A stretch of 64,000 bases of DNA from Gymnodinialimonas phycosphaerae (GTDB lineage: Bacteria > Pseudomonadota > Alphaproteobacteria > Rhodobacterales > Rhodobacteraceae): positions 4,058,001 through 4,122,000 of the forward strand of contig NZ_JAIMBW010000001.1 in the NCBI RefSeq assembly GCF_019195455.1, written 5' to 3'. The position numbers were made by a program, and so were the translations under genes. Of this stretch, positions 39,605 to 58,818 are shown one piece after another. Below the pieces are notes generated by a model that saw only the letters and a program-made list of their open reading frames with translations, made no database searches and was not told the origin of the DNA. Every line of letters starts with the position of its first letter. Position 1 is the first letter of the stretch.

Positions 39605-39624
39605 AAACTAATGGGAGGATTGGC

Positions 39625-40983: not shown

Positions 40984-41008
40984 GCGATATCGCTTCTGAA
41001 GACAGAAC

Positions 41009-41031: not shown

Positions 41032-41043
41032 TTTCTCGCCCCA

Positions 41044-41091
41044 TGATTGGCCCACTGATTGGCGCACTGATTGGCCCCGTGAATCGCCCCG
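41044..41091 (+). repeat. 12-bp tandem array (4 copies)
   Basis: Four copies of a 12-base unit, TGATTGGCCCAC, TGATTGGCGCAC, TGATTGGCCCCG and TGAATCGCCCCG, starting 12 bases after the hairpin and ending 15 bases before the permease start. Reverse-complemented, the unit reads GGGCCAATCAGT, sharing GGGCCAA with the array at 1429-1488. Confidence 0.85.
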
Positions 41092-41106
41092 CGACCGGAG
41101 ACTGAC

Positions 41107-42560: not shown

Positions 42561-42650
42561 GCAGGACGATCCACGTGGCGACGGTCGGGACTTCGGGACG
42601 CTAAGGTTTGTTTCGCCCCAGCCTGCCTTGCGACAGGCCGGGGCGACCAA

Positions 42651-42791
42651 TGCGAGAGGGGCAAGCCCCCCTCGCGCTCCCCCCAACCATGCGAGGGGGG
42701 GCTGCCCCCCTCGCGCTCCCCCCAACCTTGCGAGGGGGGACTGCCCCCCTCGCGCTCCCCCCGGTACGAGGGGCCAGCCCCTCGCGCTCCC
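42651..42791 (+). repeat. 39-bp hairpin tandem repeat (3 copies plus a shorter fourth)
   Basis: Units start at 42651, 42690 and 42729, with a shortened copy from about 42765. Each contains complementary G- and C-runs flanked by GCGAG/CTCGC and should form a stable hairpin. The preceding 42614-42645 is an imperfect GC-rich hairpin (CGCCCC...GGGGCG). The repeats continue the open frame of the 72-bp units. They lie between the two permease genes and could affect mRNA stability. Confidence 0.88.
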
Positions 42792-42819
42792 CGGAGTTTA
42801 TTTGGCAAGATGAAAGGGG
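42791..42819 (+). repeat. Dispersed element, copy 2
   Basis: CCGGAGTTTATTTGGCAAGA followed by TGAAAGGGG, matching 16671-16705 and 47843-47872. It ends 8 bases before the second permease start codon. Confidence 0.75.
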
Positions 42820-42826
42820 CGCGGAG

Positions 42827-44041
42827 ATGAGCGTGGTGCGCAATGGCTTTGTGACGGGCCCCGTGCTTGGCATCCTTTGGGCCTTGGTCGTCGCGACGAC
42901 CGTGGCGGTGGTGATGTCGTTCTCGACCGGGGAAGCGCTTCGGCCCGGCCTGATCGGGTGCACCGTGCTTGGGGCTTTGGCGGCGGTTGTGAAGTTGCGC
43001 ATCTCGTCGGAGTTTCTTGGCGGTTTGATCGTGGCCGTGGCGGCCGGTGTGTTGTTATTCACGCCGATCAGCGCGGTTCATGTGAGCGACGCCTTGGGGT
43101 TGCCCGGGCATCTCATAACGGCTGTTTTCCTGGCCGTGCCCTTGTTTTTCGGGCTTTCGCTGATGTTGCGCGGCGCGCCGTGGGGCCAGATGACCCGCCA
43201 TGAGTGGGAGGAGGCGGTGATCCGCTTCCTGACCGGGTTCGGCTTTGTGTTCTTTACCGCCGTCGTGGCGATCCCCTTCTACGTCATGGTGATGACCTCG
43301 CTGAAAACCCAAGGGCAGTTGCTGGCCAATCCGCTCGATTACTCCATCGATCTGACCCAGGGGTGGAGCCTGTTCCGCAGCTACCAGGAGCTGTTCGCGG
43401 ATTTCAATTTCGGCCGTTACATGTGGACGAGCTTCTATATCTCGGTGATCACCGTGCTGATCACGCTCTTGTTCAGCGTGCCGGGCGCCTATGCGGTGGC
43501 GCGCCTGCGGTTCAAGGGGCAAAAGGCGCTGAGCCGGTCGATCCTGCTGGTCTACATGGTGCCGATGATCGTGCTGGCGCTGCCGATCTACATCGCGTTT
43601 TCCATGACCGGCCTGCGCAACACGATCGTGGGCATCGTGATGATCTACCCGGTCACGACGATCCCCGTGGCGCTTTACATGTTGCAAGGCTACTTCCGGG
43701 GGCTTCCGGCGGAGGTCGAGGAGGCGGGGTTGATGGACGGCCTCAACCGCCTGCAGGTGATCTGGAAGATCACCTTGCCGCTATCGCTGCCCGCGATGGT
43801 GTCGGTCTCGCTTTACGTCTTCATGATCGCCTGGAACGAGTTTCTGCTGGCGTTCATGTTGCTGGATGATCCGTCGATCTTCACGTTGACGCGGGGGATT
43901 GCCTCGCTCAACTCGTCCGAGATCCCCAGACAGCACCTGATGGCGGGCGCGGTGATCGCCACGCTGCCGGTGATGATCCTGTTCCTGGGGCTGGAGAAAT
44001 TCATGACAAAGGGCCTGACGGCGGGCTCGGTGAAAGGATGA
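42827..44041 (+). CDS. Sugar ABC transporter permease (AglG-like)
   Basis: A 404-aa inner-membrane permease. An N-terminal block of about 130 residues carries four extra hydrophobic helices before the six-helix transport domain. The EAA loop is EEAGLMDGLNRLQVIWKITL. The start is the ATG with GGAG close upstream; the long in-frame extension through the repeats is not accepted as coding. Its stop overlaps the glycoside hydrolase start by ATGA. With the AglF-like subunit it should form the heterodimeric channel. Confidence 0.9.
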   Translation: MSVVRNGFVTGPVLGILWALVVATTVAVVMSFSTGEALRPGLIGCTVLGALAAVVKLRISSEFLGGLIVAVAAGVLLFTPISAVHVSDALGLPGHLITAVFLAVPLFFGLSLMLRGAPWGQMTRHEWEEAVIRFLTGFGFVFFTAVVAIPFYVMVMTSLKTQGQLLANPLDYSIDLTQGWSLFRSYQELFADFNFGRYMWTSFYISVITVLITLLFSVPGAYAVARLRFKGQKALSRSILLVYMVPMIVLALPIYIAFSMTGLRNTIVGIVMIYPVTTIPVALYMLQGYFRGLPAEVEEAGLMDGLNRLQVIWKITLPLSLPAMVSVSLYVFMIAWNEFLLAFMLLDDPSIFTLTRGIASLNSSEIPRQHLMAGAVIATLPVMILFLGLEKFMTKGLTAGSVKG

Positions 44042-45345
44042 AAGACATGTCAGATCGCGACATCGCCGCGCTGGACGCCGAGGCGCGGCGGATCCTGCAA
44101 CTCAACGACAAGGGCGGCTACACGGTGCCGACGGCGGGGCTTTATCCCTACCAGTGGAACTGGGACAGCGCCTTTGCCGCCCTGGGCTTTGCCACCTTCG
44201 ACATCGACCGCGCGTGGCGCGAGATCGAGACGCTGTTCAGTGGCCAGTGGGATAACGGCATGGTGCCCCACATCCTGTTCCATGTGATGGATGAGGGGTA
44301 TTTCCCAAGCTATGACACCTGGGGCACGGCGGACGCCGTGGGGCGGGGGGCTTGCACCCTGCCGTCCTCGGGGATCTCTCAGCCGCCGGTGGCCGCGTCC
44401 TTGGCGTGGGAGGTCTACAGGGCGAACCCGGCGGCAGGGGACGGGCGCCTGCGCGCGCTATACCCCAAGCTTTTGGCCTACCACCGCTGGATCATGGACG
44501 CGCGGGCCGAGACGGGGGCCGTCGTGATCACCCATCCGTGGGAGGCGGGCCGCGACAATGCGCCCGATTGGGACGAGGCGATGGCGGGCATCGACCCGGC
44601 GGGCGTCCAGCCCTACACGCGCCGCGACACCGGCCATGTGGATGCGCGGATGCGGCCCACGAAGGACGACTACGACCGCTACATCTGGCTGGTGCAATTC
44701 GGGCGGGACCGGAAGTGGGACGATTCGCAGATCGCGGCGGAAAGCCCGTTCCGCGTGGCGGACCCGACGATGACCTTCACCGCCCTGCGCTCGACCCGCG
44801 ATCTGGCGTTGATGGCGGATCTTGTAGGAGAAGACCGGACCGAGATCGACGGTTGGATCGCCCGACTGGAAGAGGGGGCGCGGGGCCTCTGGAATCCCGA
44901 AACGCGAAGCTATGATGCGATCAACCTGCGCACCGGCAACCGCGCGGGATCGGTATCGAACGCCGGGTTCCTGGCATGGTGGGGCGGTTTGCGCGATGAG
45001 CGCGCGTTGCCGGTTTTGCGCGACGTGCTGGACCGCAGCACCTATGCCGTTCCCAGCTATGACCCGGCGGGGCCTCAGTTCGACAGCCTGCGCTATTGGC
45101 GCGGGCCGGTCTGGGCGGTGATGAATTTCATGGTGGGCAACGGCCTGGCCGAAGCCGGGCAGGCAGAGCTTGCGGCGCGGGTGCGCGGGGATACCGCGCG
45201 GATGATCGCGGACCATGGGTTTGCCGAGTATTTCGACCCGCTGGACGGCACGCCCGCGGGCGGGGGGACATTCACCTGGACGGCGGCGGTGTGGCTGGCC
45301 TGGGCCAGCCCGTCGGCGGTCGACCGATCTGAAGGGACGCAATGA
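44038..45345 (+). CDS. GH63-type glycoside hydrolase (MGH1-like, glucosylglycerate/mannosylglycerate hydrolase-like)
   Basis: A 435-aa cytoplasmic hydrolase with an (alpha/alpha)6-barrel pattern. [26 protein letters not shown] and [17 protein letters not shown] are hallmarks of the family that hydrolyses glucosylglycerate and mannosylglycerate. Candidate catalytic residues are Asp173 in GRDNAPDW and the Glu in AEYFDPLDG near the C-terminus, by analogy with GH63. It has no signal peptide, so it acts on imported substrate. It overlaps the upstream permease (ATGA) and sits one base before the ATPase gene, so it is an integral part of the uptake operon. Confidence 0.82.
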
Positions 45346-45346
45346 C

Positions 45347-46369
45347 ATGGGCGCGATAGAACTGAAGGCCGTCGAGAAATGGTTTGGTGACGTTCAGGTC
45401 ATCAAGGGCGTGGACCTGAGCATCCAGGACGGCGAATTCGTGATCTTCGTGGGCCCCTCGGGCTGCGGCAAGTCCACGCTTCTGCGGATGATCGCCGGGC
45501 TGGAAGAGACATCACGCGGGCAGGTGATGATCGACGGGCGCGATGCGACGGCAGAGCCGCCCTCCAAGCGCGGGCTGGCAATGGTGTTTCAAAGCTACGC
45601 CTTGTATCCGCATATGTCCGTGGCCGAGAACATGGGGTTTTCTCTGAAGACCGCCGGTGCCTCCAAGGCCGAGCAGGCGGAAAAGGTGGCCGAGGCGGCG
45701 CGCGCGCTGCGGCTTGAAGACTACATGGACCGCAGGCCCAAGGACCTGAGCGGCGGGCAACGGCAGCGGGTGGCGATTGGCCGGTCCATCGTGCGCGACC
45801 CCACGGCGTTCCTGTTTGATGAGCCGCTGTCGAACCTCGACGCCTCCCTGCGGGTGGAAATGCGCTACGAGATCGCCAAACTGCACCAGCAGTTGGCCTC
45901 CACGATGGTCTACGTCACCCATGACCAGGTCGAGGCGATGACGCTGGCTGACCGAATCGTCGTGTTGAGCGCGGGGATCATCGAGCAGGTGGGCGCGCCC
46001 AAGACGCTTTATGAGCGTCCCGATAACCTGTTCGTCGCGCAGTTCATCGGCTCGCCCAAGATGAACGTCATCGCCTTGCCCTGCGACGGCTTGCGCCTGG
46101 AGGGCGCGCCTGCGAACGCGGCGCATCTGGGCATTCGGCCCGAGGCGATAACCATCGGTTCCAAAGGCCAGGGCGAGATCGACGGCACCGTGGACGTGGC
46201 CGAATACCTTGGCGCGGATATCTTCCTGATCGTGGATTGTGGTGCGGCGGGCAAGCTGACGGTGCGGACCCATGGCGAAGATGAGCTGCGCCCTGGTGCG
46301 GAGGTCGGGCTTTCTTTCACGCCGGAGAAACGCCACTTCTTCGACGGGGCGGGGTTGGCGATCCGCTAG
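45347..46369 (+). CDS. Sugar ABC transporter ATP-binding protein (MalK/UgpC/AglK type)
   Basis: A 340-aa ATPase energising the two permeases. Walker A is GPSGCGKST (residues 36-44), the signature is LSGGQRQR, Walker B is [11 protein letters not shown], and the H-loop is VTHDQVE. After residue 235 comes the OB-fold/TOBE domain of carbohydrate transporters ([12 protein letters not shown]). The ATG is two bases after the hydrolase stop. Probably the last gene of the operon, with the next gene 85 bases away. Confidence 0.95.
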
Positions 46370-46454
46370 ACGGACTTGCAATCGTATGCAGTTTTCCCTT
46401 GAAGCGGGTTGAAGCCCTAGTATCCTTGCACCCAATCATGGGGGAGGATCGGCA

Positions 46455-47780
46455 ATGGCTGAATATCTGAAACGGGGCAAACCGGCGGACGAGCGCGCCG
46501 AAGACGATGCGAAGGTGCGCGGCACGGTCGAGGGCATCCTTGCCGATATCGAGGCACGCGGCGATGCGGCGGTGCGCGACCTCTCCGCGAAGTTCGACGG
46601 CTATTGCCCCGACGCGTTTCGCCTGACCCCCTCCGAGATCGAGGCGGCGATGCAGAAGGTGTCGACCCGAGAGATGGCCGACATCCGTTTTGCGCAGACC
46701 CAGATCCGCCAATTCGCGCAGGCACAACGCGCCTCGATGACGGATATCGAGGTGGAAACGATGCCAGGCGTGATCCTGGGCCACAAAAATATCCCGGTGA
46801 ATTCAGTGGGCTGCTACGTGCCCGGTGGCAAGTTCCCGATGGTGGCTTCGGCGCATATGTCGGTGCTGACGGCGAAGGTGGCGGGCGTCAAGCGGGTAGT
46901 GGCCTCGGCCCCGCCGATGAAAGGCGCGCCGCATCCGGCGATTGTGGCCGCGATGCATGAAGGCGGCGCGGACGAGATCCTGTGCCTTGGCGGTGTGCAG
47001 GCGGTGGGCGCCATGGCGATTGGCACGGAGACGGTGAAACCCGTCGATATGCTGGTCGGCCCCGGCAATGCCTTCGTGGCCGAAGCCAAACGGCAGCTCT
47101 TTGGGCGCGTGGGCATCGATCTGTTCGCAGGCCCGACCGAGACCTGCGTGATCGCCGATGAGACCGTGGACGCCGAAATGTGCGCCACGGATCTGCTGGG
47201 GCAGGCAGAGCATGGCTATAATTCTCCGGCGGTTCTGATCACCAACTCGCGCAGATTGGCCGAAGCGACCCTGGCCGAGATTGACCGGATCCTTCAGATC
47301 CTGCCCACCGCCGAGACCGCGCGGGCGTCGTGGGAGGATTATGGCGAGGTGATCGTCTGCGACGGCTATGACGAGATGCTGGCGGTCTCCGAAGAGATCG
47401 CGTCCGAGCATATTCAGGTGATGACGGACCGTGACGATTGGTTCCTGGAGAACATGACCAGTTACGGCGCGCTGTTCCTGGGGCCGCGCACCAACGTGGC
47501 CAACGGTGACAAGGTGATTGGCACCAACCACACGCTGCCGACGAAGAAGGCGGGCCGCTATACGGGCGGGCTGTGGGTTGGCAAATTCCTGAAAACCCAT
47601 TCCTATCAGAAGATTGTGACCGATGAGGCGGCGACACTGGTGGGCGAATATGGCTCTAGGTTGTGCATGTTGGAGGGCTTTGTGGGCCATGCCGAGCAAT
47701 GCAACGTCCGGGTGCGACGCTACGGCGGCGTGAATGTGCCTTACGGCGAGGGCGCGCCTTACCGGGAGGCGGCGGAATAG
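46455..47780 (+). CDS. Histidinol-dehydrogenase-family enzyme (HpsN/sulfopropanediol dehydrogenase-like)
   Basis: A 441-aa NAD- and zinc-dependent dehydrogenase of the HisD superfamily. Zinc and catalytic features are kept: Gln250 and His253 in GQAEHG, Glu318-His319 in ASEHIQ, and a late His in GFVGHAEQ. Substrate-site blocks differ from true HisD ([18 protein letters not shown]), as in sulfopropanediol 3-dehydrogenase HpsN, which I recall from roseobacters. It lies outside any histidine operon. A GC hairpin with a T-run follows, so it may be transcribed separately from the next gene. Substrate is inferred only to be a primary or secondary alcohol. Confidence 0.85.
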
Positions 47781-47791
47781 GTTTGGGGGGA

Positions 47792-47819
47792 GGCGGGCCC
47801 CGCCCGCCCACCCCTTTTT
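47792..47819 (+). terminator. Terminator-like hairpin after the HisD-like gene
   Basis: Stem GGCGGG with CCCGCC, then CCACCCC and five T. A second perfect hairpin GTGGGGGC-CA-GCCCCCAC follows at 47821-47838. Confidence 0.6.
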
Positions 47820-47842
47820 AGTGGGGGCCAGCCCCCACACCC

Positions 47843-47872
47843 CCGGAGTTTTTCTCGCAAGATGAAAGAGGG
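47843..47872 (+). repeat. Dispersed element, copy 3
   Basis: CCGGAGTTTTTCTCGCAAGA followed by TGAAAGAGGG, matching the copies at 16671 and 42791. It ends 3 bases before the start codon of the NTF2-like gene and may supply its ribosome site. Confidence 0.75.
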
Positions 47873-47875
47873 TGC

Positions 47876-48826
47876 ATGTCGACGGTTGAAGCTGCTGCAA
47901 AGGAATGTGTGAGCGCGTTTCGCCGGACCGGGCGATTGGACGGTTTGGCCGGGACGGACTGCGTTGTGCAGTTGGCGCATCCGTTCGAGACGCTGGATGT
48001 GGCGGAATACCACGGTGTGGTGGATCAATTGGCGACGGCCTTCCCGGATCTGGAGCGGCGCGTGACGATTGAACTCGCGGGGCGCGACGGTCACGGGCAA
48101 ATGTGGGTCGGTCAGTGCGGCTACTGGTGCGGCGCGTTCGAGGCGCCGTTTCTGGACATTCCGCCGACGCGCCGGATGGCGGCGATGCGGTTCCATGATT
48201 TCCTGCGCGTCGAAGGCGGGCGGGTCTTGGAGGTGCAGTCCCTGTGGGATCTGCCGGAGTTGATGATGCAGGCCGGCGTCTGGCCTTTGTCGCCGTCGCT
48301 TGGGCGCGAGTGGCAGGTGCCGGGGCCCGCGACGCAGGACGGGTTGCGTGTGGCTGGCGATGGGGCGGAGGCCTTGCGGATCGTGGGCGACATGCTGGCG
48401 GGGCTTGGCAATGACCCGGCAGGCACGCCACGAGAGGTAATGGCGCGGTACTGGCACGAGGGATGTTCGTGGTACGGGCCCTCCGGCATTGGCACAGCGC
48501 GTGGCATCGACGGGTTTCGCAAGCATCACCAGGCGCCGTTCCTGGGCGCGATGCCGGACCGTCAGGGCTTTGTGGAGCGGGGCCATTTCTTTGGCCAAGG
48601 CGATTACGTCGGCTTCACCGCCTGGCCGGGGATGGCGATGACGTTGTCGGGGGGCACATGGTTGGGGATCCCCGGCGCGGGGCAAGAGATCACCATGCGG
48701 AGCCTTGATTTCTGGCGCGTGGACGCGGGCAGAATTGCCGAGAATTGGGTTCTGGTAGACCTGTTGCATGTCTACGCTCAACTGGGTGTGGACGTGCTGG
48801 CACGGATGCGGGAGGTGGCTGGATGA
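47876..48826 (+). CDS. Double NTF2/SnoaL-like protein 1
   Basis: A 316-aa soluble protein built of two NTF2-like (SnoaL) domains, about residues 5-145 and 160-316. The first has WVGQCGYWCGAFEAPFLDIP, the second YWHEGCSWYGPSGIGTARGI and the domain end RIAENWVLVDLLHVYAQLG. The family includes cyclases, dehydratases and isomerases that use a deep pocket, and many uncharacterised members. A second protein of the same design lies in the cluster at 50722-51702. Function unknown; a small-molecule enzyme is inferred. Confidence 0.78.
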   Translation: MSTVEAAAKECVSAFRRTGRLDGLAGTDCVVQLAHPFETLDVAEYHGVVDQLATAFPDLERRVTIELAGRDGHGQMWVGQCGYWCGAFEAPFLDIPPTRRMAAMRFHDFLRVEGGRVLEVQSLWDLPELMMQAGVWPLSPSLGREWQVPGPATQDGLRVAGDGAEALRIVGDMLAGLGNDPAGTPREVMARYWHEGCSWYGPSGIGTARGIDGFRKHHQAPFLGAMPDRQGFVERGHFFGQGDYVGFTAWPGMAMTLSGGTWLGIPGAGQEITMRSLDFWRVDAGRIAENWVLVDLLHVYAQLGVDVLARMREVAG

Positions 48827-48850
48827 CTGGGGCCTGCTTGTACAAAAGCC

Positions 48851-48874
48851 TGATACTCACAGGCTTATCCACAG
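48851..48874 (-). repeat. DnaA-box-containing motif, site A
   Basis: Read on the minus strand: CTGTGGATAAGCCTGTGAGT then ATCA. It contains a perfect DnaA box (TTATCCACA, 48865-48873 on the plus strand) and matches site B at 54930 in 21 of the first 22 bases. It lies between the first NTF2-like gene and the SDR gene. Confidence 0.75.
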
Positions 48875-48926
48875 ATTTTTCGGACTGAATAACACATATG
48901 GAACCAATTTCTGAAGGAACGCTATC

Positions 48927-49682
48927 ATGACCCTGCCCCGTACGCCGTCGTTTTCGCTGGCGGGAAAGCGCGCCTTCGTCCCGGGTGGGTCGCGCGGCAT
49001 TGGCCTTGGCTGCGCCGTGGCGCTGGCCGAGGCGGGCGCCCATGTGGTGATCGCCGCGCGCGGGCAAGACGCTGTTGACGCGGCCGTGGCCGAGATGACC
49101 GCAGCTGGGTTTTCGGCCGAAGGGCTGGCGCTGGACATCACCGATATCGAGGCCACGCGCGCCGCCATCGCGGCCATGGGGCGGCTGGATGTTCTGTGCA
49201 ATTCGGCCGGTCTGGCGCGCCACAGCGCGGCGATGGACACAACCCCCGAGGATTACGACGCAGTCACCAACATCAACGTGCGGGCGGCGTACTTCTTGGC
49301 CCAGGCAGCGGCGAGGTCGATGACGGACGGGGGATCGATCATCCAGGTCTCGTCGCAGATGGGCCATGTCGGCGGCATCGAAAGGGCGGTCTATTGCGCC
49401 ACGAAACACGCGGTGGAGGGCATGACCAAGTCGATGGCGATTGAATGGGGCCCCCGCAACATCCGCGTCAACACGCTGTGCCCGACGTTCATCCGCACGC
49501 CGCTGTCGGCACCCACCTTCGCGGACCCCGAAAAGCGTGCCTGGATCGAGGCCAAGATCAAGTTGCCCCGGGTGGCCGAGGTCGAAGATATCATGGGGGC
49601 GGTGCTGTTCCTGGCCTCGGACGCCAGCGCGATGGTGACAGGAACGTCGATCCTGGTCGACGGCGGCTGGACGGCGGGATGA
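48927..49682 (+). CDS. SDR-family oxidoreductase
   Basis: A 251-aa short-chain dehydrogenase/reductase. The cofactor loop reads VPGGSRGIGLG (the first Thr of TGxxxGIG is Pro19). NSAG is present (LCNSAGLARH), the active-site Ser is in IIQVSSQMGHVGG, and Tyr-Lys in YCATKHAVEG. It probably oxidises or reduces an alcohol/ketone in the pathway of this cluster. Its end overlaps the LacI gene (ATGA). The start has GAAGGAAC upstream. Confidence 0.92.
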   Translation: MTLPRTPSFSLAGKRAFVPGGSRGIGLGCAVALAEAGAHVVIAARGQDAVDAAVAEMTAAGFSAEGLALDITDIEATRAAIAAMGRLDVLCNSAGLARHSAAMDTTPEDYDAVTNINVRAAYFLAQAAARSMTDGGSIIQVSSQMGHVGGIERAVYCATKHAVEGMTKSMAIEWGPRNIRVNTLCPTFIRTPLSAPTFADPEKRAWIEAKIKLPRVAEVEDIMGAVLFLASDASAMVTGTSILVDGGWTAG

Positions 49683-50725
49683 CAGAACGCGCCCCCAGCG
49701 GTGCCGGATCCGGCAAGGTCACGTCCATCGACGTGGCGCAGCGGGCAGGCGTCAGCCAATCTGCCGTCAGCCGTGTGTTCACCCCGGGGGCCAGCGTGTC
49801 GAAGAAGATGGCGGCGCGGGTGCGGGCCGCGGCCGATGATCTGGGTTATCGGCCCAACGTGCTGGCGCGGTCGCTGATCACCGGGCGCTCGCGGATCATC
49901 GGCCTTGTCGTGGCCTACCTCGATAACCCGTTCTACCCAGACGCGCTGGAGAAACTCAGCGAAGCGCTTCAGGCCAAGGGTTACCACATCCTGATCTTCA
50001 TGGCGGGAAATTCGGGCGATGACGTGGACAGCGTGATCCATGATCTGATGGATTATCAAGTGGATGGTATCATCACCGCCTCCATCAACCTTAGCGGAGA
50101 ATTGACAGACCGCTGCCGTGCGGCGCGGTTGCCGGTGGTGCTGTTCAATCGCGGGATCGAGGGATCGGGCCTTAGTGCGGTCACCTCCGCCAACCGCGTT
50201 GGCGGGGCAAAGGTGGCGGACGCTTTGCTGGACGCGGGGCATGGGCGGATCGCGACGATCTCGGGGTGGATGGGCGCGTCGACCGGGCGCGACCGGCGTG
50301 ATGGGTTCGTGGCGGCGCTGACCGCGCGCGGGGCATCGTTGCACGCCGAGGCTGATGGCATGTTCAACCGCCACACCGCCGCCGATGCCGCCCGCGCGAT
50401 GATGGAAAGCCCCACGCCGCCCGATGCGATTTTCGTGGGCAACGACCACATGGCTTTGTCGGTCATGGATACCCTGCGCCATCAGATGGGGGTGGATGTG
50501 CCGGGCGATGTCTCGATCATCGGCTATGACGATGTGCCGATGGCGGCTTGGCCGTCCTATGCGCTGACCACCCTGCGCCAGCCGGTGAACCGGATGGTAG
50601 AGGCCACGATTGACACGCTGCTGGATGAAATCGAAACCGGGCGCGCGCCCGGCACCCGGATCGAGATCGAGGGAGAGTTGATCCCCCGCACCTCGGCCCG
50701 CCTGACAAAAGGACTGACCCCATGA
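49679..50725 (+). CDS. LacI-family transcriptional regulator
   Basis: A 348-aa regulator with N-terminal HTH (VTSIDVAQRAGVSQSAVSRV, about residues 14-35), hinge RPNVLARSLITGRS and a sugar-binding-protein-like effector domain (IIGLVVAYLDNPFYPDALEK, FVGNDHMALSVMDTLR, VSIIGYDDVPMAAWP). It is embedded between SDR and NTF2-like genes with ATGA overlaps on both sides, so it surely belongs to this operon and likely responds to the pathway substrate. I found no perfect operator near it comparable to 38483-38498. Confidence 0.93.
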   Translation: MTERAPSGAGSGKVTSIDVAQRAGVSQSAVSRVFTPGASVSKKMAARVRAAADDLGYRPNVLARSLITGRSRIIGLVVAYLDNPFYPDALEKLSEALQAKGYHILIFMAGNSGDDVDSVIHDLMDYQVDGIITASINLSGELTDRCRAARLPVVLFNRGIEGSGLSAVTSANRVGGAKVADALLDAGHGRIATISGWMGASTGRDRRDGFVAALTARGASLHAEADGMFNRHTAADAARAMMESPTPPDAIFVGNDHMALSVMDTLRHQMGVDVPGDVSIIGYDDVPMAAWPSYALTTLRQPVNRMVEATIDTLLDEIETGRAPGTRIEIEGELIPRTSARLTKGLTP

Positions 50726-51702
50726 AGGGTTTTGACGCCAAGTTTCGCGATTTTCCCGACTATATCGTCGGCATCACCAAGGAGATCTGGGAAGATCGCG
50801 GCATCGCGACCCTGCACCAGTATTACGCCGATGATATCGTCGTGCGGTCCCCTGCCTCGGTCGTGGTGGGAAATCAGGGGGTGATCGCCGCAACCATGGC
50901 GACCTTGGCCGAATTTCCCGACCGCGTGCTTTTGGGCGAGGATGTGATCTGGTCCGGCACGCCGGAAGACGGCATGCTGTCCTCGCACCGCATCATCAGC
51001 CAGGCGACCCATGCGGGCGATGGCGTTTACGGCGCGGCCACGGGCAAGCGGCTGGAATACCGGATCCTCGCCGATTGCCACGCGAAGAATAACACCATCG
51101 ACGATGAATGGCTGATCCGCGATCAGGGGGCCATCGTGCGCCAGATGGGTTGGAGCCCGCGCGACTACGCCGCCGATTTGATCGCGCGTGAAGGCGGGCC
51201 AGGGGCCTGCGTGCAACCGCTGACGCCCGACACGGACAAGCCCGGCCCCTACAAGGGGCGCGGTAACGACAACCCTTGGGGCCAGCAGTTGGCGGATGTG
51301 CTGACCCGGATCATGGGCGCCGATATGGCTGCGATCCCCGAGGTCTATGACCGCGCCTGCCACCTGGAATACCCTGGCCATGTCACCGCCCACGGGCCGG
51401 ACGCAGCGGACAGGTTCTGGATGTCGCTACGCGCCGCCTTCCCGAATGCCACGTTCACCATCGACCACCAGATCGGCCGCGACGATCCCCACATGTGCCC
51501 CCGCGCCGCCGTAAGGTGGAGCCTTCATGGCACCCATGAGGGCTGGGGCGGTTTCGGCCAGCCCACCGGCGCGATGGTCTATATCGTCGGCATCACCCAT
51601 GCCGAGTTCGGGCAGGTCGGCAGTGCCGAACCGAAGCTGCGGCGCGAGTACACGCTGTTTGACGAGACGTCCGTGTGGAAGCAGATTCTGCTGGCTGGAT
51701 AA
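50722..51702 (+). CDS. Double NTF2/SnoaL-like protein 2
   Basis: A 326-aa protein with two NTF2-like domains, about residues 5-150 and 190-320. Typical features are YYADDIVVRSPASVVVGNQG, DEWLIRDQGAIVRQMGW and, in the second domain, MSLRAAFPNATFTIDHQ with FDETSVWKQILLAG at the end. It differs clearly from the homologue at 47876 and probably acts on another intermediate or forms a complex with it. Start overlaps the LacI stop (ATGA). Function unknown. Confidence 0.78.
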   Translation: MKGFDAKFRDFPDYIVGITKEIWEDRGIATLHQYYADDIVVRSPASVVVGNQGVIAATMATLAEFPDRVLLGEDVIWSGTPEDGMLSSHRIISQATHAGDGVYGAATGKRLEYRILADCHAKNNTIDDEWLIRDQGAIVRQMGWSPRDYAADLIAREGGPGACVQPLTPDTDKPGPYKGRGNDNPWGQQLADVLTRIMGADMAAIPEVYDRACHLEYPGHVTAHGPDAADRFWMSLRAAFPNATFTIDHQIGRDDPHMCPRAAVRWSLHGTHEGWGGFGQPTGAMVYIVGITHAEFGQVGSAEPKLRREYTLFDETSVWKQILLAG

Positions 51703-51725
51703 GTTTGTGAGTTACCTGGGGATAA
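51693..51725 (+). repeat. DnaA-box-like motif, site C
   Basis: Contains CTGGATAAGTTTGTGAGTTA and then TGGGGATAA. It is a weaker relative of sites A and B (shared GGATAA and TGTGAGT). The stop codon of the second NTF2-like gene is part of it. Confidence 0.5.
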
Positions 51726-51730
51726 GCCAC

Positions 51731-52756
51731 ATGAATGTTGGCATCTATCCCCCTGAGGAGATTGAAAAAATGACCCCCGCTGAAATGGAATCCCGCATCG
51801 TCCGATATGGTGATCTGATGCCCTGCAAGACCGCCTTCATCGATGCCCATACGCCGGGCTCGGACCAGAAGGAGAACTTCACGATCATCGGCGGCGGGGT
51901 CAGTGAATCACCCGATCAGCATGTGCATATCGCCGAGGCGCACGGCTTCAACATCGGCGCGGCGGGGCAGCCGCCCAAGTGTCGCAACTCGCTCCATTCC
52001 CACCGCACGGCCGAGGTGTTCTTCGTGCTCTCGGGCCGCTGGCGGTTCTTCTGGGGCCGCCACGGCACCGCCGGAGAGGTCACGCTGGAGCGTGGCGATA
52101 TCTTCAACATCCCCACCGATATCTTTCGCGGGTTCGAGAATATCGGCAATGACTACGGAATGATCATGGCCGTGCTGGGGGGCGACGACGCGGGGGGCGG
52201 CGTGATCTGGGCACCGCAGGTGATCCGCGACGCCGCCGATCATGGGCTGGTGCTGGCCGAGACCGGCAAGCTCTACGATACCAAGAAGGGCGAACGCCTG
52301 CCCGAAGGCGTGGCCCCGATGCCGGTGATGTCCGATGCCGAGGCTGATGCCTACCCGGCCCCCACCACGGCGGATGTCATCCCGAATTACGTGGCCCGCT
52401 ATTGGGACATCGTCGCGCTGGCCGATCGCAAGCCGGTGAAGGTCATCGGCGCGACAGGCATGCTGCGCGACAAGCCGGGGTTCGAGGTGGATCTGATCAC
52501 CCGCGCCTCTGCCACGGAGGCGATGCACCGCCATGACCGCCAGTCCGTTCTGATGCCGGTGACGGGCCATTGGCGCGTGAGTTGGTCTGCGAACGAGACC
52601 TATCGCGCCGGCACAACGACCCTGGCCCCCGGGGACACGATGTCCGTGCCCGCGGGGCTCGACCATTCCGCCGTCCCCTCCATGACCGGCGAAGCGGCGC
52701 TTTATCACATCATCGGCACCGACGATGCGGCGGGGCCAACCTGGAGTGCGTCATGA
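51731..52756 (+). CDS. Bicupin protein (gentisate dioxygenase-like fold)
   Basis: About 341 aa with two cupin domains. The first (about residues 50-150) has SLHSHRTAEVFFVLSGRWRF, giving His-His-Glu metal ligands and a later FENIGN stretch. The second (about 235-335) has AMHRHDRQSVLMPVTGHWRV and GDTMSVPAGLDHS, with a less complete ligand set. The ATG at 51731 is used; an ATG at 51770 has a better ribosome site (GAGGAG, 9 bases) and would remove 13 residues. Likely a metal-dependent dioxygenase, isomerase or lyase, or a sensor; the substrate is unknown. Confidence 0.8.
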   Translation: MNVGIYPPEEIEKMTPAEMESRIVRYGDLMPCKTAFIDAHTPGSDQKENFTIIGGGVSESPDQHVHIAEAHGFNIGAAGQPPKCRNSLHSHRTAEVFFVLSGRWRFFWGRHGTAGEVTLERGDIFNIPTDIFRGFENIGNDYGMIMAVLGGDDAGGGVIWAPQVIRDAADHGLVLAETGKLYDTKKGERLPEGVAPMPVMSDAEADAYPAPTTADVIPNYVARYWDIVALADRKPVKVIGATGMLRDKPGFEVDLITRASATEAMHRHDRQSVLMPVTGHWRVSWSANETYRAGTTTLAPGDTMSVPAGLDHSAVPSMTGEAALYHIIGTDDAAGPTWSAS

Positions 52757-53763
52757 AGAAACTCGCCTGCGGCCTTGCCCTCGCCCTTTCGGCCACGCCC
52801 CTGACCGCACAGACCTGGACGGCCAACACCTTCGCGAATGAATCGCTTCTGTTTGCCGGTGTCTCTCCGCCCGAGCCCTCGATGCACTTCGGCTGCACCG
52901 CTCCGGCGCCGGAAAACCGACCGCTGATCGAGACCGGAAGCCATGAAAGCCACCGGACAGAGGCGTTCGAGACCACGGTCGGTTTCTTCGACCCGCTGTT
53001 CGAATGGTCGCCGCCCTATGTGATCAGCGGCATCGTGATCACCGTGGACGGGACCTCTTACCAACTGCCGCCGCTGGAACTGAACGAGCTTCAGGGATCA
53101 GCCATCTATCTGCCGATGACGGATCCGTTCATCCTCTCCTTGTTCACCGCGCAAAGCCTGACCTTCGATACCGGGCAAGGCACGGCCTATGCCTACCCCG
53201 TCGACGGTCTGGCGGACGGGTTGCGTGAGGCCTTCGGCTATTGCAACGCGCGCTGGGTCGAACTTGGCACGCCGATGCCGCCCGCCCTTGCGGCGGTGAT
53301 GGGCGACGCGCCATTGGCCCCTTCCGCGCCTGCCTCCGCGTCGCTACCGGCCCCGATTGTGCAACAGGCGGCCGCGTCTTGCATGAATGGCGCAGGCACA
53401 ATCACCCGCGAGGATCTGCAAACGGCTGATTTCGACGGTGACGGGCAGGAGGATTTCATCCTCAACCACGCCTCCGTCACCTGTACGGACGGCATGAGCG
53501 GCTTTTGCGGTGCCGCAAATTGCTCGATCGACGTGTTCTTGTCGTCGCTGGCCTACCAGCAACCGCGAGAGCTTCTTGGCATCGGAGCAGAGATCGTCCC
53601 CCTCGCCGATGGACGCACGGGCATTCAGATTGCAGGCAGTTTTTCGCTTTGCGGCCAGGACGGTTTGTGTCCGGGGCCGCAGGTTTGGGATGGCACGTCC
53701 TTTGTTCTCTTCGATGGGGGCGCCGTGCAATCTGCCCCAACACCCACTGTTCCCAAAGACTGA
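52753..53763 (+). CDS. Secreted protein of unknown function with FG-GAP/EF-like calcium motif
   Basis: A 336-aa protein with a signal peptide (MKKLACGLALALSATPLTAQ). The N-terminal half has no recognisable domain; a Pro/Ala/Ser-rich linker follows at about residues 185-200. The C-terminal part has TADFDGDGQEDFIL, a DxDxDG-type calcium loop, and several Cys (CMNG, CTDG, CGAANC, CGQDGLC) that could form disulfides. It overlaps the cupin stop by ATGA although it does not look metabolic, so its position inside the cluster is odd. Confidence 0.7.
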   Translation: MKKLACGLALALSATPLTAQTWTANTFANESLLFAGVSPPEPSMHFGCTAPAPENRPLIETGSHESHRTEAFETTVGFFDPLFEWSPPYVISGIVITVDGTSYQLPPLELNELQGSAIYLPMTDPFILSLFTAQSLTFDTGQGTAYAYPVDGLADGLREAFGYCNARWVELGTPMPPALAAVMGDAPLAPSAPASASLPAPIVQQAAASCMNGAGTITREDLQTADFDGDGQEDFILNHASVTCTDGMSGFCGAANCSIDVFLSSLAYQQPRELLGIGAEIVPLADGRTGIQIAGSFSLCGQDGLCPGPQVWDGTSFVLFDGGAVQSAPTPTVPKD

Positions 53764-53777
53764 ATTGGACCTCTGAC

Positions 53778-54908
53778 ATGACCATCAAAACCACCCACGT
53801 CGGCAGCCTCCCGCGCACGCAGGAGGTCGTGGATTTCATTTTCGCCCGAGAAAACGCCGAAAGCTATGACGCGGACGCCTTTGACGCCGCAATGACGAAG
53901 GCGGTCGATGCGACCGTGGCCAAGCAGGTGGCGGCGGGCATCGATATCGTCTCCGACGGCGAAACCTCCAAGATCTCCTACGCGACCTACGTGAAGGATC
54001 GCTACACCGGGTTTTCGGGCGACAGCCCGCGCAATGCCCCGGCGGACCTCAAGAAGTTCCCCTCGTTCCTCAAGCGCCTGGCCGATGACGGCGGCACGCC
54101 GCAATACGCGCGGCCCATGTGCACCGGGGAGGTGCGGTCGAAAGGGCAGGGGGAATTGGGCAAGGACATCGCCAATCTGAAGGCCGCGATGGCCAAGCAT
54201 GGGGCGACGGAAGGCTTCATGAACGCCGCCTCGCCCGGCGTGATCTCGCTGTTTCTACAGAACGATTTCTACCCGACCCGCGACGCCTATCTGGCCGCTC
54301 TGGCCGATGCCATGGCCGAGGAATATCGCACCATCGTCGACGCCGGGTTGATGCTGCAACTCGATTGCCCCGACCTCGCGCTGTCACGGCACATGCTGTT
54401 CAATGACCTTTCGGATGCAGAGTTCCTGAAGATCGCGATCGCCCATGTGGAGGCGCTCAACCACGCGCTGTCGGGCATCGATCCGGCGCGGGTGCGGGTG
54501 CACATCTGCTGGGGCAATTACGAGGGGCCTCACGTCTGCGACGTGCCAATGGACACGGTGTTCTCCACCTTCATGTCGGTGGGCGCGAACCAGCTGTTGT
54601 TCGAGACGTCGAACCCCCGCCATGCCCACGAGTGGACCGTGTTCCGCGACCGCGCGGCAGAGATCCCCGATGACAAGATCCTTGTGCCCGGTGTCGTCGA
54701 TACGACGACCAATTTCGTGGAACACCCCGAGTTGGTGGCCGAACGGATTGCCAAGTTCACCGGCATCGTCGGCGCGGATCGGGTGATCGCCGGAAGCGAC
54801 TGTGGTTTCGGCACTTTCGCGGGCTTCGGGGCGGTCGATCCCGAGATCGCCTATGCCAAGCTGGAGGCCTTGGCCCAAGGCGCGGCTTTGGCGAACGCGC
54901 GGGGATAG
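53778..54908 (+). CDS. MetE-like / epoxyalkane:CoM transferase-like zinc alkyltransferase
   Basis: A 376-aa protein of the cobalamin-independent methionine synthase C-terminal (MetE/EaCoMT) superfamily. It opens with TTHVGSLPR and keeps the zinc set: His242 and Cys244 in VHICWGNYEG, and Cys342 in GSDCGFGTF. The N-terminal half of MetE, needed to bind folate substrates in tandem, is absent. Such paralogues transfer an alkyl group to or from a thiol; the substrate here is unknown. It starts 14 bases after the secreted-protein gene and is the last gene of the cluster. Confidence 0.85.
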   Translation: MTIKTTHVGSLPRTQEVVDFIFARENAESYDADAFDAAMTKAVDATVAKQVAAGIDIVSDGETSKISYATYVKDRYTGFSGDSPRNAPADLKKFPSFLKRLADDGGTPQYARPMCTGEVRSKGQGELGKDIANLKAAMAKHGATEGFMNAASPGVISLFLQNDFYPTRDAYLAALADAMAEEYRTIVDAGLMLQLDCPDLALSRHMLFNDLSDAEFLKIAIAHVEALNHALSGIDPARVRVHICWGNYEGPHVCDVPMDTVFSTFMSVGANQLLFETSNPRHAHEWTVFRDRAAEIPDDKILVPGVVDTTTNFVEHPELVAERIAKFTGIVGADRVIAGSDCGFGTFAGFGAVDPEIAYAKLEALAQGAALANARG

Positions 54909-55541: not shown

Positions 55542-56843
55542 TTAGACCGCGACGTTTTCGACGGGGTCATCTTCGACCAGACGCGGCGCGTGGGGCTTGG
55601 CGTGCTTCTCGTCGCCGGAATTGGCGTCAATGAACTCCAGCACCAGGGGCCGGATGTTGTTACGCCAGGACTTGCCCGCGAAGATACCGTAGTGCCCGGC
55701 TTCGGGCTCGATGTAGTTGGCCTTCTTCTCGTCCGGCAGACCGGTCAGCATGTCCAGCGCGGCCACGCATTGGCCGGGGGCCGAGATGTCGTCCTTGCCG
55801 CCTTCGACCGTTTTCACGGCGACGGAAGTGATCTTGCCGATATCCACCTGCTTGCCGTCGACCACGAAGATGTTTTTCGCGATCTCGCGGTTCTTGAAGA
55901 TCCGCTCCACGGTCGAGAGGTAGAATTCCGCCGTCATGTCCATGACCGCCAGGTATTCGTCGTAGAAGATGTTGTGCTTGTCATGGTCGCTGGCCTCGCC
56001 CTTGGACACGGCGACGACTTGATCGGTGAAGGCCTTGGCGTGGGTCTCGGCGTTCATCGCCATGAAGGACGCCAACTGCTGGATGCCCGGATAGACGAGG
56101 CGGCCCGCGCCAGCGTATTTGAAGCCCACGCGCTGGATCACGAATTTCTCCAGGCTGCCCATCGTGACGCGGCGGCCGAAGTCCGTCACATCCGTGGCGG
56201 CGGCGTCGGGGTCGATCGGCCCGCCGATCAGGGTCAGGGTGCGGGGCTGTGCCTTGGGGTCTTCCTCGGCCAGGTAGGCCGTGGCGGCCAGCGCCAGGGG
56301 CGCGGGCTGGCAGACGGCGATGACATTGGTATCAGGCCCCATCTCGCGCATGAAATCGACAAGGTAGTGGGTGTAGTCCTCGATATCGAACTTGCCCTCG
56401 CTGACCGGAATGTCGCGCGCATTGTGCCAATCGGTTATGTAGACGTCGCAATCGGGCAGCAGCGATTTCACGGTCTTGCGCAGCAGCGTCGCGTAGTGGC
56501 CGGACATTGGCGCAACAAGCAGGATCTTGCGGCCCGTGGGCTCTCGGCCCTGAACGTCGAAGCGGATCAGGTCGCCGAAGGGGCGCTCCATCACCGTCTC
56601 GATGGTGACCACGTGGTCACGGCCATCGTCGCCGGGGATCGAACTGATGCCCCAATCGGGCTTGGCCGCCATGCGCGCGAACGAGCGCTCGGTCACTTCG
56701 CCCCAGGCGGCGGTAAGCTGGATGAAGGGGTTCGCGGAAAGGCCCAGTTGTGGGTAACTGCACAACGCGCGGGCCGATGCGCCCATCCATTGGTTGGTGA
56801 CGCGCATTGATTCCATTAGGTCATAGGTGAGAAGCTGTCGCAT
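55542..56843 (-). CDS. phaZ: Intracellular polyhydroxyalkanoate depolymerase
   Basis: Degrades stored polyhydroxybutyrate. The 433-aa protein starts at the ATG with a TTGGAG ribosome site (MRQLLTYDLMESMR), preferred over a Met 18 codons upstream. The family's Cys nucleophile is Cys178 in VIAVCQPAPLAL, replacing the Ser of ordinary lipase boxes. APMSGHYATLLRKTV gives the oxyanion region, and the final EAGHYGIFAGKSW holds the catalytic His. It diverges from phaC across 136 bases, so synthesis and mobilisation genes share a control region. Confidence 0.95.
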   Translation of the reverse strand: MRQLLTYDLMESMRVTNQWMGASARALCSYPQLGLSANPFIQLTAAWGEVTERSFARMAAKPDWGISSIPGDDGRDHVVTIETVMERPFGDLIRFDVQGREPTGRKILLVAPMSGHYATLLRKTVKSLLPDCDVYITDWHNARDIPVSEGKFDIEDYTHYLVDFMREMGPDTNVIAVCQPAPLALAATAYLAEEDPKAQPRTLTLIGGPIDPDAAATDVTDFGRRVTMGSLEKFVIQRVGFKYAGAGRLVYPGIQQLASFMAMNAETHAKAFTDQVVAVSKGEASDHDKHNIFYDEYLAVMDMTAEFYLSTVERIFKNREIAKNIFVVDGKQVDIGKITSVAVKTVEGGKDDISAPGQCVAALDMLTGLPDEKKANYIEPEAGHYGIFAGKSWRNNIRPLVLEFIDANSGDEKHAKPHAPRLVEDDPVENVAV

Positions 56844-56947
56844 AGTTACTCCAAGCGTCGGGCCTGCCGCTGTCACAGCGGTGTCAGGCCGGATCATTTC
56901 GTCACGTGGACCACCTCACCAAGGTCCCCGTATGAATTGCGTTATTA

Positions 56948-56960
56948 TGCAGATGCAGCA
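56948..56960 (+). promoter_or_regulatory. TGC-rich PhaR-type site in the phaZ-phaC intergenic region
   Basis: TGCAGATGCAGCA, 20 bases before phaC. It resembles PhaR-binding TGC-rich sequences but does not meet the strict CTGC-N3-GCAG pattern seen before phaP. Confidence 0.35.
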
Positions 56961-56979
56961 TTGAGCCGGGGAAATCAAG

Positions 56980-58818
56980 GTGCCAGACGACAAGACAGAC
57001 AATAGTGCGACAGATGGTGGCGCTCCGGATGGGGCGGAAGCCCTTGAAAGACTGAACGCAAACCTTGCCAAGGTCGAGGGGCTGTCAAAACGCCTCGTGG
57101 CGGCATTGGGGCAGCGCGCGCCTTCGGATCAAGGGCTTCAGGGCCCCAGCCAAGAGCTTTACCTGAAGGCAGGTGCGGCCTATTGGGCCGACGCCATCGC
57201 CAACCCATCCAAGCTGTTGGAACAGCAGGCGCAGTATTGGGCGCAAGCCATGACCCAGTTCATGGAGATGCAGGACGCAATCGCCACGGGCAAGATGCCC
57301 CTGCTGGATGATGACGACCTGCCCGCCGATCTTGCGGGCGACAAGCGTTTTGCCAACCCGCTCTGGCGCACGCATCCCTACTTCAACTTCGTTCGCCACC
57401 AATACGTCCTTGGCTCGGACGCGATTCGCAAGGCGGTGGCCGAGTTGGAGGGGCTGGACGCCAAGGACAAGCAGCGCGTCGAATTCTTCGCCACCCAGGT
57501 GATCGAGCTGTTTTCGCCCACCAACTACTTCGCCACCAATCCCGACGCGCTTGAAAAGGCGGTCGAGACCGAGGGCGAAAGCCTTGTGCACGGGCTGGAA
57601 AACCTGGTGCGTGACATCGAAGCCCACGGCGGGGAAATCCTTCCGACCCTTGCGGATCCCGATGCCTTCGAGGTCGGCAAGAACATCGGCACCAGCGAAG
57701 GCAGCGTCGTCTACCGCAACCGCATGATGGAGCTGATCCAGTACGCCCCCACCACCGAGACGGTCCACAAGACCCCGCTGATCATCTTCCCGCCCTGGAT
57801 CAACAAGTTCTATATCCTTGATCTCAAACCGCAAAACAGCCTGATCAAATGGATTGTGGAACAGGGCTACACGTTGTTCGTGGTCAGCTGGAAGAACCCC
57901 GATGACAGCTACGCCGATGTGGGCCTGGAGGATTACGTCGAGGACGGCTACCTGGCCGCCATCGAACAGGTGAAGGAGATCACCGGTCAAAAGCAGGTCA
58001 ACGCCGTGGGCTATTGCATCGCGGGCACGACGCTGAACCTGACGCTTGCGCTGATGAAAAAGCGGGGCGACAAATCGGTGAAATCCGCGACCTTCTTCAC
58101 CACGCTCACCGACTTTTCGCAGCAGGGCGAATTCACGCCCTTCCTGCAGGATGATTTCGTCGATGCGATTGAACGCCAGATCAATCAGGACGGCGTGCTC
58201 AACAGCTATTTCATGTCCAAGACGATGTCGTTTCTGCGCTCCAAGGACCTGATCTATCAGCCTGCCGTGCGCTCTTACATGATGGGCGAGGCGCCGCCGG
58301 CGTTTGACCTGCTGTACTGGAACGGCGACGGCACCAATCTGCCCGGCAAGATGACGAAGCAGTATCTGCGGGGCCTGTGCCAGGGCAACCAACTTGCCGA
58401 TGAGGGGTTCGAGTTGTGCGGCGAAAGCCTGTCGCTCAAGGACGTCACCGTGCCACTGTGTGCGGTGGCCTGCAAGACGGACCACATCGCCCCTTGGGTC
58501 GATTGCTTTCGGGGCGTGACCAAGATGGGATCGCGCAACAAGACGTTCATCCTGTCGGAATCCGGCCACATCGCGGGGATCGTGAACCCGCCGTCGAAGA
58601 AGAAATACGGCCACTTCACGAATGCGGACGTGAAAGGGGAAGCCGCCGATTGGTTTGAGGGGGCCAGCTTCAACGAAGGGTCCTGGTGGCCGCAATGGGA
58701 AGCATGGCTTGCAAAGCGGTCAGGGGCGCAGATTGCTGCACGTGCACCGGGTGAGGGGGGGCGCGAGATTCTGGCCCCGGCCCCCGGTACCTACGTGTCG
58801 GAAGGCAAGAAACACTGA
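56980..58818 (+). CDS. phaC: Class I polyhydroxyalkanoate synthase
   Basis: Polymerises hydroxyacyl-CoA into storage polyester at the granule surface. The 612-aa protein starts at GTG with GGGGA upstream. The catalytic triad is evident: Cys346 in GYCIAGT, Asp501 in TDHIAPW and His530 in SGHIAGI. The N-terminal roughly 100 residues are the variable class I region. It is followed 133 bases later by phaP, whose promoter carries PhaR operators. Confidence 0.97.
   Translation: MPDDKTDNSATDGGAPDGAEALERLNANLAKVEGLSKRLVAALGQRAPSDQGLQGPSQELYLKAGAAYWADAIANPSKLLEQQAQYWAQAMTQFMEMQDAIATGKMPLLDDDDLPADLAGDKRFANPLWRTHPYFNFVRHQYVLGSDAIRKAVAELEGLDAKDKQRVEFFATQVIELFSPTNYFATNPDALEKAVETEGESLVHGLENLVRDIEAHGGEILPTLADPDAFEVGKNIGTSEGSVVYRNRMMELIQYAPTTETVHKTPLIIFPPWINKFYILDLKPQNSLIKWIVEQGYTLFVVSWKNPDDSYADVGLEDYVEDGYLAAIEQVKEITGQKQVNAVGYCIAGTTLNLTLALMKKRGDKSVKSATFFTTLTDFSQQGEFTPFLQDDFVDAIERQINQDGVLNSYFMSKTMSFLRSKDLIYQPAVRSYMMGEAPPAFDLLYWNGDGTNLPGKMTKQYLRGLCQGNQLADEGFELCGESLSLKDVTVPLCAVACKTDHIAPWVDCFRGVTKMGSRNKTFILSESGHIAGIVNPPSKKKYGHFTNADVKGEAADWFEGASFNEGSWWPQWEAWLAKRSGAQIAARAPGEGGREILAPAPGTYVSEGKKH

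Follow-up and report, generated by a model that had tools for sequence, protein, structure and literature searches.

A conserved gene cluster of Gymnodinialimonas phycosphaerae as the probable enzyme core of a LacI-controlled catabolic regulon

What could a HisD-type dehydrogenase, two double SnoaL/NTF2-like proteins, a short-chain dehydrogenase/reductase (SDR), a LacI regulator, a bicupin and a MetE-like enzyme do together? This question is raised by a cluster at positions 46455-54908 of a 64,000-nucleotide stretch of Gymnodinialimonas phycosphaerae DNA (the window, C1:4058001-4122000; other loci of the same genome are given in coordinates of this contig, labelled G000:C1). An initial annotation made from the letters (the sequence-only reading) had recognised no pathway that the set matches, and we likewise found neither a description of the gene set nor a match to a described pathway in the open-licence PMC literature, subscription journals and preprints being outside this search. 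Computation revealed a gene set conserved among relatives, with conserved catalytic residues and a palindrome shared with dispersed loci. The window cluster probably encodes the core enzymes of a regulon under LacI control that takes up and degrades a family of small, polar, hydroxymethyl-bearing compounds, and the likeliest substrate class is a sugar- or cyclitol-like compound.

Pfam matches agreed with the gene order and families of the sequence-only reading. All genes are on the forward (+) strand and encode a predicted HisD-family NAD-dependent alcohol-to-acid dehydrogenase of the GKFPM subtype (46455..47780; PF00815, 448 bits); NTF2a, a double SnoaL/NTF2-like protein (47876..48826); the SDR (48927..49682; PF13561, 203 bits); a LacI-family repressor, the presumed reader of the operator (49679..50725; PF00356 and PF13377); NTF2b, the other double SnoaL/NTF2-like protein (50722..51702); a bicupin metalloenzyme (51731..52756; PF07883), with H89, H91 and E95 in its N-terminal cupin site; a secreted-type protein, probably a passenger, for which no family matched (52753..53763); and a MetE-like zinc thiol-transferase, a core MetE without the N-terminal domain (53778..54908; PF01717). 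Both NTF2 proteins matched SnoaL PF07366 in two stretches (86.5 and 73.7 bits, against a gathering score of 28.4). The reported ATGA overlaps (SDR/LacI, LacI/NTF2b, bicupin/secreted protein) and the 14-base gap between the secreted-protein and MetE-like genes were exact.

The check proposed in the sequence-only reading was co-occurrence of the gene families in other genomes, and the families passed it. The closest MetE-like proteins are named for Jannaschia and Gymnodinialimonas, and the family was accordingly taken as Rhodobacteraceae. In a family sample of 198 genomes, one per genus, bicupin matches were present in 83 genomes and strong ones in 79, while the MetE-like protein and the HisD subtype, used as independent baits, were found in 81 and 99, respectively. 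Bicupin and MetE-like genes occurred together in 74 genomes (odds ratio 237; Fisher p 1.5e-39, a test that treats genomes as independent and leaves shared ancestry uncorrected, although with one genome per genus), bicupin and HisD in 77, and all three in 72. This comparison leaves out MetE-like matches weaker than 1e-60, HisD matches weaker than 1e-170 and four genomes with weak bicupin matches only (G035, G065, G084 and G185). The HisD subtype also occurred without a strong bicupin in 22 genomes, and in some of the loci fetched from these, HisD and SDR stood beside TRAP-, TAXI- or ribose-type-like transporters.

The family sample contained 82 strong bicupin places, 60 of which were fetched with their surroundings. 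The bicupin was present in all 60 loci because it was the bait. By tblastn, relatives were found of HisD in 54 loci, LacI in 52, NTF2b in 49, SDR in 46, MetE-like in 44, an alpha/beta-hydrolase in 39, NTF2a in 38, a CUT1 permease of one family in 34, an RraA-family protein in 32 and a small SnoaL protein in 28; an S-adenosylmethionine (SAM) methyltransferase was found in 11. All six of HisD, SDR, LacI, NTF2b, bicupin and MetE-like were present in 36 loci and at least five in 47. Thus the gene set named in the sequence-only reading stood as a conserved unit except for the secreted-protein gene, which had a relative in 2 of the 60 loci. Matches that spanned under 50% of the query and fell short of the identity cut-offs were excluded from these counts. 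The counts are independent of the gene caller used for fetched loci, a codon-score caller that misses partial genes and called none in at least four loci (L074, L076, L217 and L218). Names in unannotated loci (transporter types, polyhydroxyalkanoate genes outside the window, Otn, GMC, glycine cleavage and folate) were read from sequence starts, and 80 named loci served for organism names and are left out of gene-content counts.

Bicupin and MetE-like genes lay within 6 kb of each other in 58 of the 74 genomes carrying both; in the other 16 they were on separate contigs (15) or far apart (1), and at least two of these cases (G157 and G195) resemble assembly breaks. The remaining separated genomes suggest that what the MetE-like gene tracks is the pathway and not just the locus, since it co-occurs with the bicupin even where the two are not adjacent. 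In a sample of the phylum (398 genomes), 31 had a bicupin match; 16 of these were strong (E <1e-180), all in the same family, and the other 15 were distant relatives. Among named records outside the family, the bicupin unit was found in Oricola and on plasmids of Sinorhizobium medicae, Martelella and Roseibium; none of the three plasmid stretches viewed contained MetE-like.

The second line of evidence is regulatory. A palindrome, TTGCAWWSSWWTGCAA, is common to promoter regions of the loci, where it was found before HisD, transporter, bicupin and MetE-like genes. A near copy in the window, TTGCAATCGTATGCAG (46376..46391, without assigned strand), is a putative LacI-type operator 63 bases 5' of the HisD start codon. 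A matrix built from 32 sites at other loci, with the window left out (training minimum 18.0), gave this site a score of 20.9, compared with a best score of 12.0 in the reversed window and scores all below 15 in the reversed sequence of 42 loci (642 kb). A second window site, at 21485, scored 18.3 and lies inside an open reading frame. Scanning with a single pattern and up to three mismatches gave two window matches against a chance mean of 1.85, i.e. no more than chance, so that the case for an operator depends on the matrix, the position and the other loci.

In 61 genomes the strict pattern gave 30 sites and its reversed control none. Seventeen sites were within 9 kb of a HisD or bicupin match, and a further six were at cluster-type transporter, HisD-family or SnoaL genes, bringing the regulon total to 23 of 30. 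The strict site occurred in 13 of the 20 strong-bicupin genomes of this sample and in 3 of the 31 having neither the HisD subtype nor a strong bicupin. Dispersed genes carried it as well: a lone bicupin (G001) and a bicupin on a contig separate from its HisD (G072) had the site 24-41 bases upstream, and two MetE-like genes away from a bicupin (L234 and L243) had it about 90-105 bases upstream. Around MetE-like genes, mostly away from a bicupin, a site scoring above 20 was present in 6 of 16 loci, not always directly before MetE-like. A regulator gene and a palindrome shared by several promoters are thus found together, as in a LacI regulon, and we infer that the window LacI reads the palindrome. 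Co-occurrence across the 60 loci and 198 genomes bears out the earlier description of a catabolic-looking, LacI-regulated system.

Scanning the genome of G. phycosphaerae itself for the palindrome located the transporter genes, which are missing from the window cluster, at two unlinked sites. At 2.43 Mb the palindrome lies between an operon for a solute-binding protein and two permeases (SBP-permF-permG; 64, 69 and 75% identity to the transporter of the cluster) and an NTF2a-like gene, and at 1.42 Mb it lies between genes for an ATPase and a small SnoaL protein (76 and 86% identity) and another NTF2a-like gene. The pattern scan gave 12 forward sites against 6 in the control, with sites also at an inositol-type locus and elsewhere. 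A degenerate pattern had seven perfect matches in the 4.3-Mb genome, six at regulon loci and the seventh at 3550571; with one mismatch allowed it gave 22 sites, including that of the window, and the reversed pattern gave 2. Genes for HisD, SDR, LacI, three NTF2b proteins, bicupin, hydrolase, RraA and transporters form a second copy of the cluster at 2.48-2.51 Mb, in which MetE-like survives only as a 42-position remnant. The two copies could therefore complement each other, with MetE-like supplied by the window and hydrolase and RraA by the second copy. The genome had 29 SnoaL-domain matches, 23 of them in the window cluster or other palindrome-bearing loci.

Several related arrangements were seen along with these loci. 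A HisD subtype with GRYPL or GRFPL at the motif position (L031:5068-6363, L047, L064, L065 and L203) is often near an amidase gene, and in G. phycosphaerae the same palindrome lies upstream of a HisD gene of this type, at 2482987. A related cupin accompanies an HpaI aldolase, a CUT1 transporter and 3-oxo-tetronate look-alike genes at L177 (G000:C1:2989000-3006500), L176 and L190; L177 and L190 also have a hydrolase and RraA, and this set is a candidate second pathway of acid-sugar type. At L279 (G000:C1:1726000-1740000), a single-domain bicupin relative and an NTF2b relative (58%) are set among TRAP-like, deacetylase-like and xanthine-dehydrogenase-like genes, and a related locus (L221) has HisD and SDR among similar genes.

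In relatives the set also includes genes for a CUT1 transporter, an alpha/beta-hydrolase, an aldolase of RraA or HpaI type and additional SnoaL-like proteins. Their common order is CUT1 transporter, small SnoaL, HisD, NTF2a, SDR, LacI, NTF2b, bicupin, SAM methyltransferase (in some), MetE-like, alpha/beta-hydrolase and RraA, and catalytic residues are conserved in HisD, MetE-like, RraA and the hydrolase. Distant versions on Klebsiella, Roseomonas and Deinococcus plasmids keep the cupin and hydrolase, with an HpcH/HpaI-family aldolase replacing RraA; those of Klebsiella and Deinococcus additionally retain HisD, SDR and LacI. The occurrence of two unrelated aldolase folds in one slot suggests a retro-aldol step. 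A minimal version, made up of CUT1 transporter, bicupin and RraA, occurs in two same-genus genomes. One SnoaL-like gene accompanies it at L187 (palindrome score 24.0), and a histidinol-type HisD lies further off at L188 (palindrome score 22.5). PDB sequence searches with two binding proteins returned generic CUT1 and TRAP relatives only.

From these families we propose a route whose individual reactions and order are interpretive, as is the methyl group on the substrate. The CUT1 ATP-binding cassette (ABC) transporter, encoded elsewhere behind the same palindrome, would import the compound. HisD of the GKFPM type would convert CH2OH to COOH with NAD (four electrons), and the SDR would oxidise an adjacent secondary alcohol. 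Variant rings or side chains may be isomerised or opened by the SnoaL/NTF2-like proteins, which the regulon has in multiple copies; the MetE-like zinc enzyme may move a substrate methyl group to a thiol; and the bicupin would open or break the carbon skeleton. The alpha/beta-hydrolase and RraA-type (elsewhere HpaI-type) aldolase of the 2.48-2.51 Mb copy would then release pyruvate-type products. For HisD to act, a terminal alcohol should lie next to a group that binds zinc, and the hydrolase together with the aldolases would need a keto acid late in the route. A methylated substrate is possible, the MetE-like gene being the one hint of a methyl group. That a single genome encodes several binding proteins and over ten SnoaL proteins hints that one core structure occurs in many variants. 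Three loci have one-carbon or related genes nearby: formate-tetrahydrofolate ligase and FolD after MetE-like at L216 and glycine cleavage genes at L238 (both by eye), and pterin-binding and URO-D-type genes at L087. We did not count these neighbours in support of demethylation because, by a rough estimate, three such loci among more than 100 may be chance.

Besides the uncorrected ancestry behind the co-occurrence statistics, several points weigh against this reading. It is built on sequence evidence. Among the NCBIfam models listed for the window proteins (for the SDR, the best 25 of 229), a curated cut-off was reached for hisD alone. The fold search with the bicupin placed dioxygenases, decarboxylases and storage proteins alike among the matches listed and does not single out a reaction. 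Beside the window cluster the alpha/beta-hydrolase and RraA are absent, and since L177 and L190 carry both RraA and HpaI, the idea that HpaI replaces RraA is weakened. MetE-like is absent from 16 of the 60 loci and from 5 of the 79 strong-bicupin genomes, and the methyl step may therefore be optional. As for the palindrome, 7 of the 30 strict sites lie away from regulon genes, and 7 of the 20 strong-bicupin genomes have no perfect palindrome.

Other explanations have to be weighed against the proposed regulon, beginning with the two that the locus itself brings to mind. Kinship of HisD with HpsN had been taken as a hint of a sulfonated compound, and a pathway for 2,3-dihydroxypropane-1-sulfonate (DHPS) or another sulfonate, with HisD acting as HpsN, would fit the fact that the nearest solved relative of the window HisD is HpsN (8v35). 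In the HpsN report, the motif is G-R-Y-A/S-H, its His (His126) binding the sulfonate (PMC11382572). At this position the window HisD and 48 of 52 core HisD proteins have G-K-F-P-M, the other four not being captured by the regular expression, and a separate protein with the GRYSH motif is encoded in the same genome (L209). GK-type rows form a supported group apart from the GRYSH row in the HisD tree (99/97), although this row is long-branched and its placement unsure. Because the motif is absent and a separate motif-bearing protein exists, HpsN kinship gives no pointer to a sulfonate; we rejected this reading as highly improbable. The catalytic machinery is nevertheless shared: Q250, H253, D352 and H412 together with E318 and H319, invariant in a 10-row alignment, correspond, as read from the alignment, to the HpsN zinc ligands Gln248, His251, Asp352 and His411 and the catalytic Glu318/His319. 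The G-S-A-P-L type motif of histidinol dehydrogenase was not found either. Judged by its motif, the window HisD is not a histidinol dehydrogenase, despite its match to NCBIfam TIGR00069 (431.6 bits, cut-off 243.8), a model that may not separate HpsN-like proteins. Another HisD-family gene of the genome (L211) has YVPGGLASYPSS at the motif position and groups apart in the tree.

Supply of the substrate by the neighbouring sugar ABC operon, another suggestion of the sequence-only reading, fared no better. This operon (38528-46369) encodes a LacI, a solute-binding protein, two permeases, an MGH-type GH63 hydrolase (PF22422, 368 bits) and an ATPase, and looks like a glucosyl- or mannosylglycerate uptake operon. 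It stops 85 bases short of HisD. If it delivered glucosyl- or mannosylglycerate, or glucosylglycerol, for catabolism by the cluster, the MGH-type hydrolase would be accounted for. By tblastn at the cut-offs used, its GH63, LacI, binding-protein, permease and ATPase genes had a counterpart in none of the 60 loci, and weaker matches (21-48%) were to other transporters. The operon ends before the palindrome, which also marks transporter genes of the cluster family at about 2.43 and 1.42 Mb. Moreover, the operon looks inserted, because the hydrolase pair 5' of it (36696-38424) adjoins the cluster without the operon in L034, L055 and L062. We therefore rejected the adjacent operon as supplier and regard this explanation as quite unlikely. 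A short tandem repeat lies between its two permease genes (about 42340-42500), with a repeated peptide in a spurious minus-strand open reading frame. On the other flank, polyhydroxybutyrate depolymerase and synthase genes (55542-58818, by Pfam) stand beside MetE-like; by eye, such genes are also beside MetE-like (and the hydrolase) in L212, L214, L233, L234, L239, L240, L242 and L245, in several genera and including where the bicupin is elsewhere, which may reflect a functional link or old synteny.

A more serious competitor is a sugar, polyol or sugar-acid pathway of the non-phosphorylative Entner-Doudoroff type, which we hold possible at a tentative level and which overlaps with the proposed regulon as its sugar version without the methyl step. 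Here HisD would yield an aldonate and the SDR a keto acid or lactone, the hydrolase would be a lactonase, the bicupin a dehydratase or isomerase and RraA/HpaI a 2-keto-3-deoxy-acid aldolase, leaving MetE-like a side function. CUT1 transporters and LacI are in keeping with it, as are the minimal transporter-bicupin-RraA loci L187 and L188 and the 3-oxo-tetronate kinase and partners beside the related cupin-aldolase-hydrolase set (annotated on a Thioclava plasmid; by eye at L176, L177 and L190). The aldolases matched best to HpaI, GarL and 2-keto-3-deoxy-L-rhamnonate aldolase models, all below cut-off. However, it leaves unexplained the MetE-like gene, which tracks the bicupin across genomes, and the multiplied SnoaL proteins; in addition, no kinase or known sugar-acid dehydratase was recognised among families shared by four or more of the 60 loci plus the window, labelled by Pfam for ten families and otherwise by similarity or eye. 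The SnoaL family, to which the NTF2 proteins match, includes polyketide cyclases, but a biosynthetic, polyketide-like cluster is scarcely credible, as no polyketide synthase gene was noticed within the cluster and the palindrome also stands at genes for uptake transporters. A speculative and improbable version of the catabolic regulon concerns gadusol and mycosporine-like amino acids, algal sunscreens that bear a C5 hydroxymethyl beside a tertiary alcohol. If the regulon degraded such methoxylated, hydroxymethylated cyclohexenones, HisD would turn the C5 hydroxymethyl into a carboxylate, SnoaL proteins, or the amidase of some relatives, would strip off the differing amino substituents, MetE-like would remove the O-methyl, the SDR would oxidise a ring alcohol and the bicupin would cleave the resulting enediol ring. 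The hydrolase and RraA might finish via a 4-carboxy-4-hydroxy-2-oxoadipate-like acid, an acid of the type on which RraA-fold aldolases act. If true, this version gives every conserved gene a job.

Roseobacters are main consumers of algal exudate, and the compounds on which they grow are only partly known. A strong bicupin is present in about 40% of the sampled genera of the family (79 of 198), and a dedicated, sometimes multi-copy system in so many genera suggests that the substrate of the proposed LacI regulon is likely common in the sea. The palindrome offers a handle that points to the regulator, the transporter and the dispersed members, and makes the substrate search definable.

The two metal enzymes have well-marked active sites. 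In the bicupin, H89, H91, E95 and R133 were invariant in a 23-row alignment, the first three being at least 90% conserved in a 25-row alignment. Its predicted model (mean predicted local distance difference test score 88.5) shows a second barrel, residues 11-332 align on bicupins, and model and alignment together indicate two cupin barrels with one metal site. In MetE-like, H242, C244, E276 and C342, which we take to be the zinc ligands, were invariant in 14 sequences, and the best NCBIfam score was 96.4 bits against an equivalog cut-off of 406. A MetE-family enzyme linked to catabolism may be new for the family, a point at which no search was aimed.

Among known systems, DHPS catabolism of roseobacters (HpsN, HpsO and HpsP) is similar in using a HisD-fold NAD enzyme that turns a terminal alcohol into a carboxylate, an SDR and a transporter, according to PMC11131964 and PMC11382572. 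In contrast, the proposed regulon has a HisD with GKFPM and further includes bicupin, MetE-like, SnoaL, hydrolase and aldolase, and the GRYSH gene of the same genome is separate. The 3-oxo-tetronate pathways (OtnK and partners) resemble it in another respect: a related cupin, an HpaI aldolase and a hydrolase stand beside an annotated OtnK on a Thioclava plasmid, and the same three with RraA stand beside look-alike genes in the G. phycosphaerae genome (L177, by eye). The window cluster differs in having no Otn genes and in adding HisD, SDR and MetE-like. Compared with the bicupins quercetin dioxygenase and oxalate decarboxylase, the window protein is 13-16% identical in the rows compared and has Arg in place of the His of the second cupin motif. 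MetE-like shares PF01717 and the four zinc ligands with the core MetE or folate-independent methionine synthases (Mes families) and epoxyalkane:coenzyme M transferase; unlike these, it is below all NCBIfam cut-offs listed and tied to a catabolic-looking regulon. Taken together, the comparison describes a probable, uncharacterised LacI catabolic regulon assembled from known enzyme families, with one well-marked HisD subtype.

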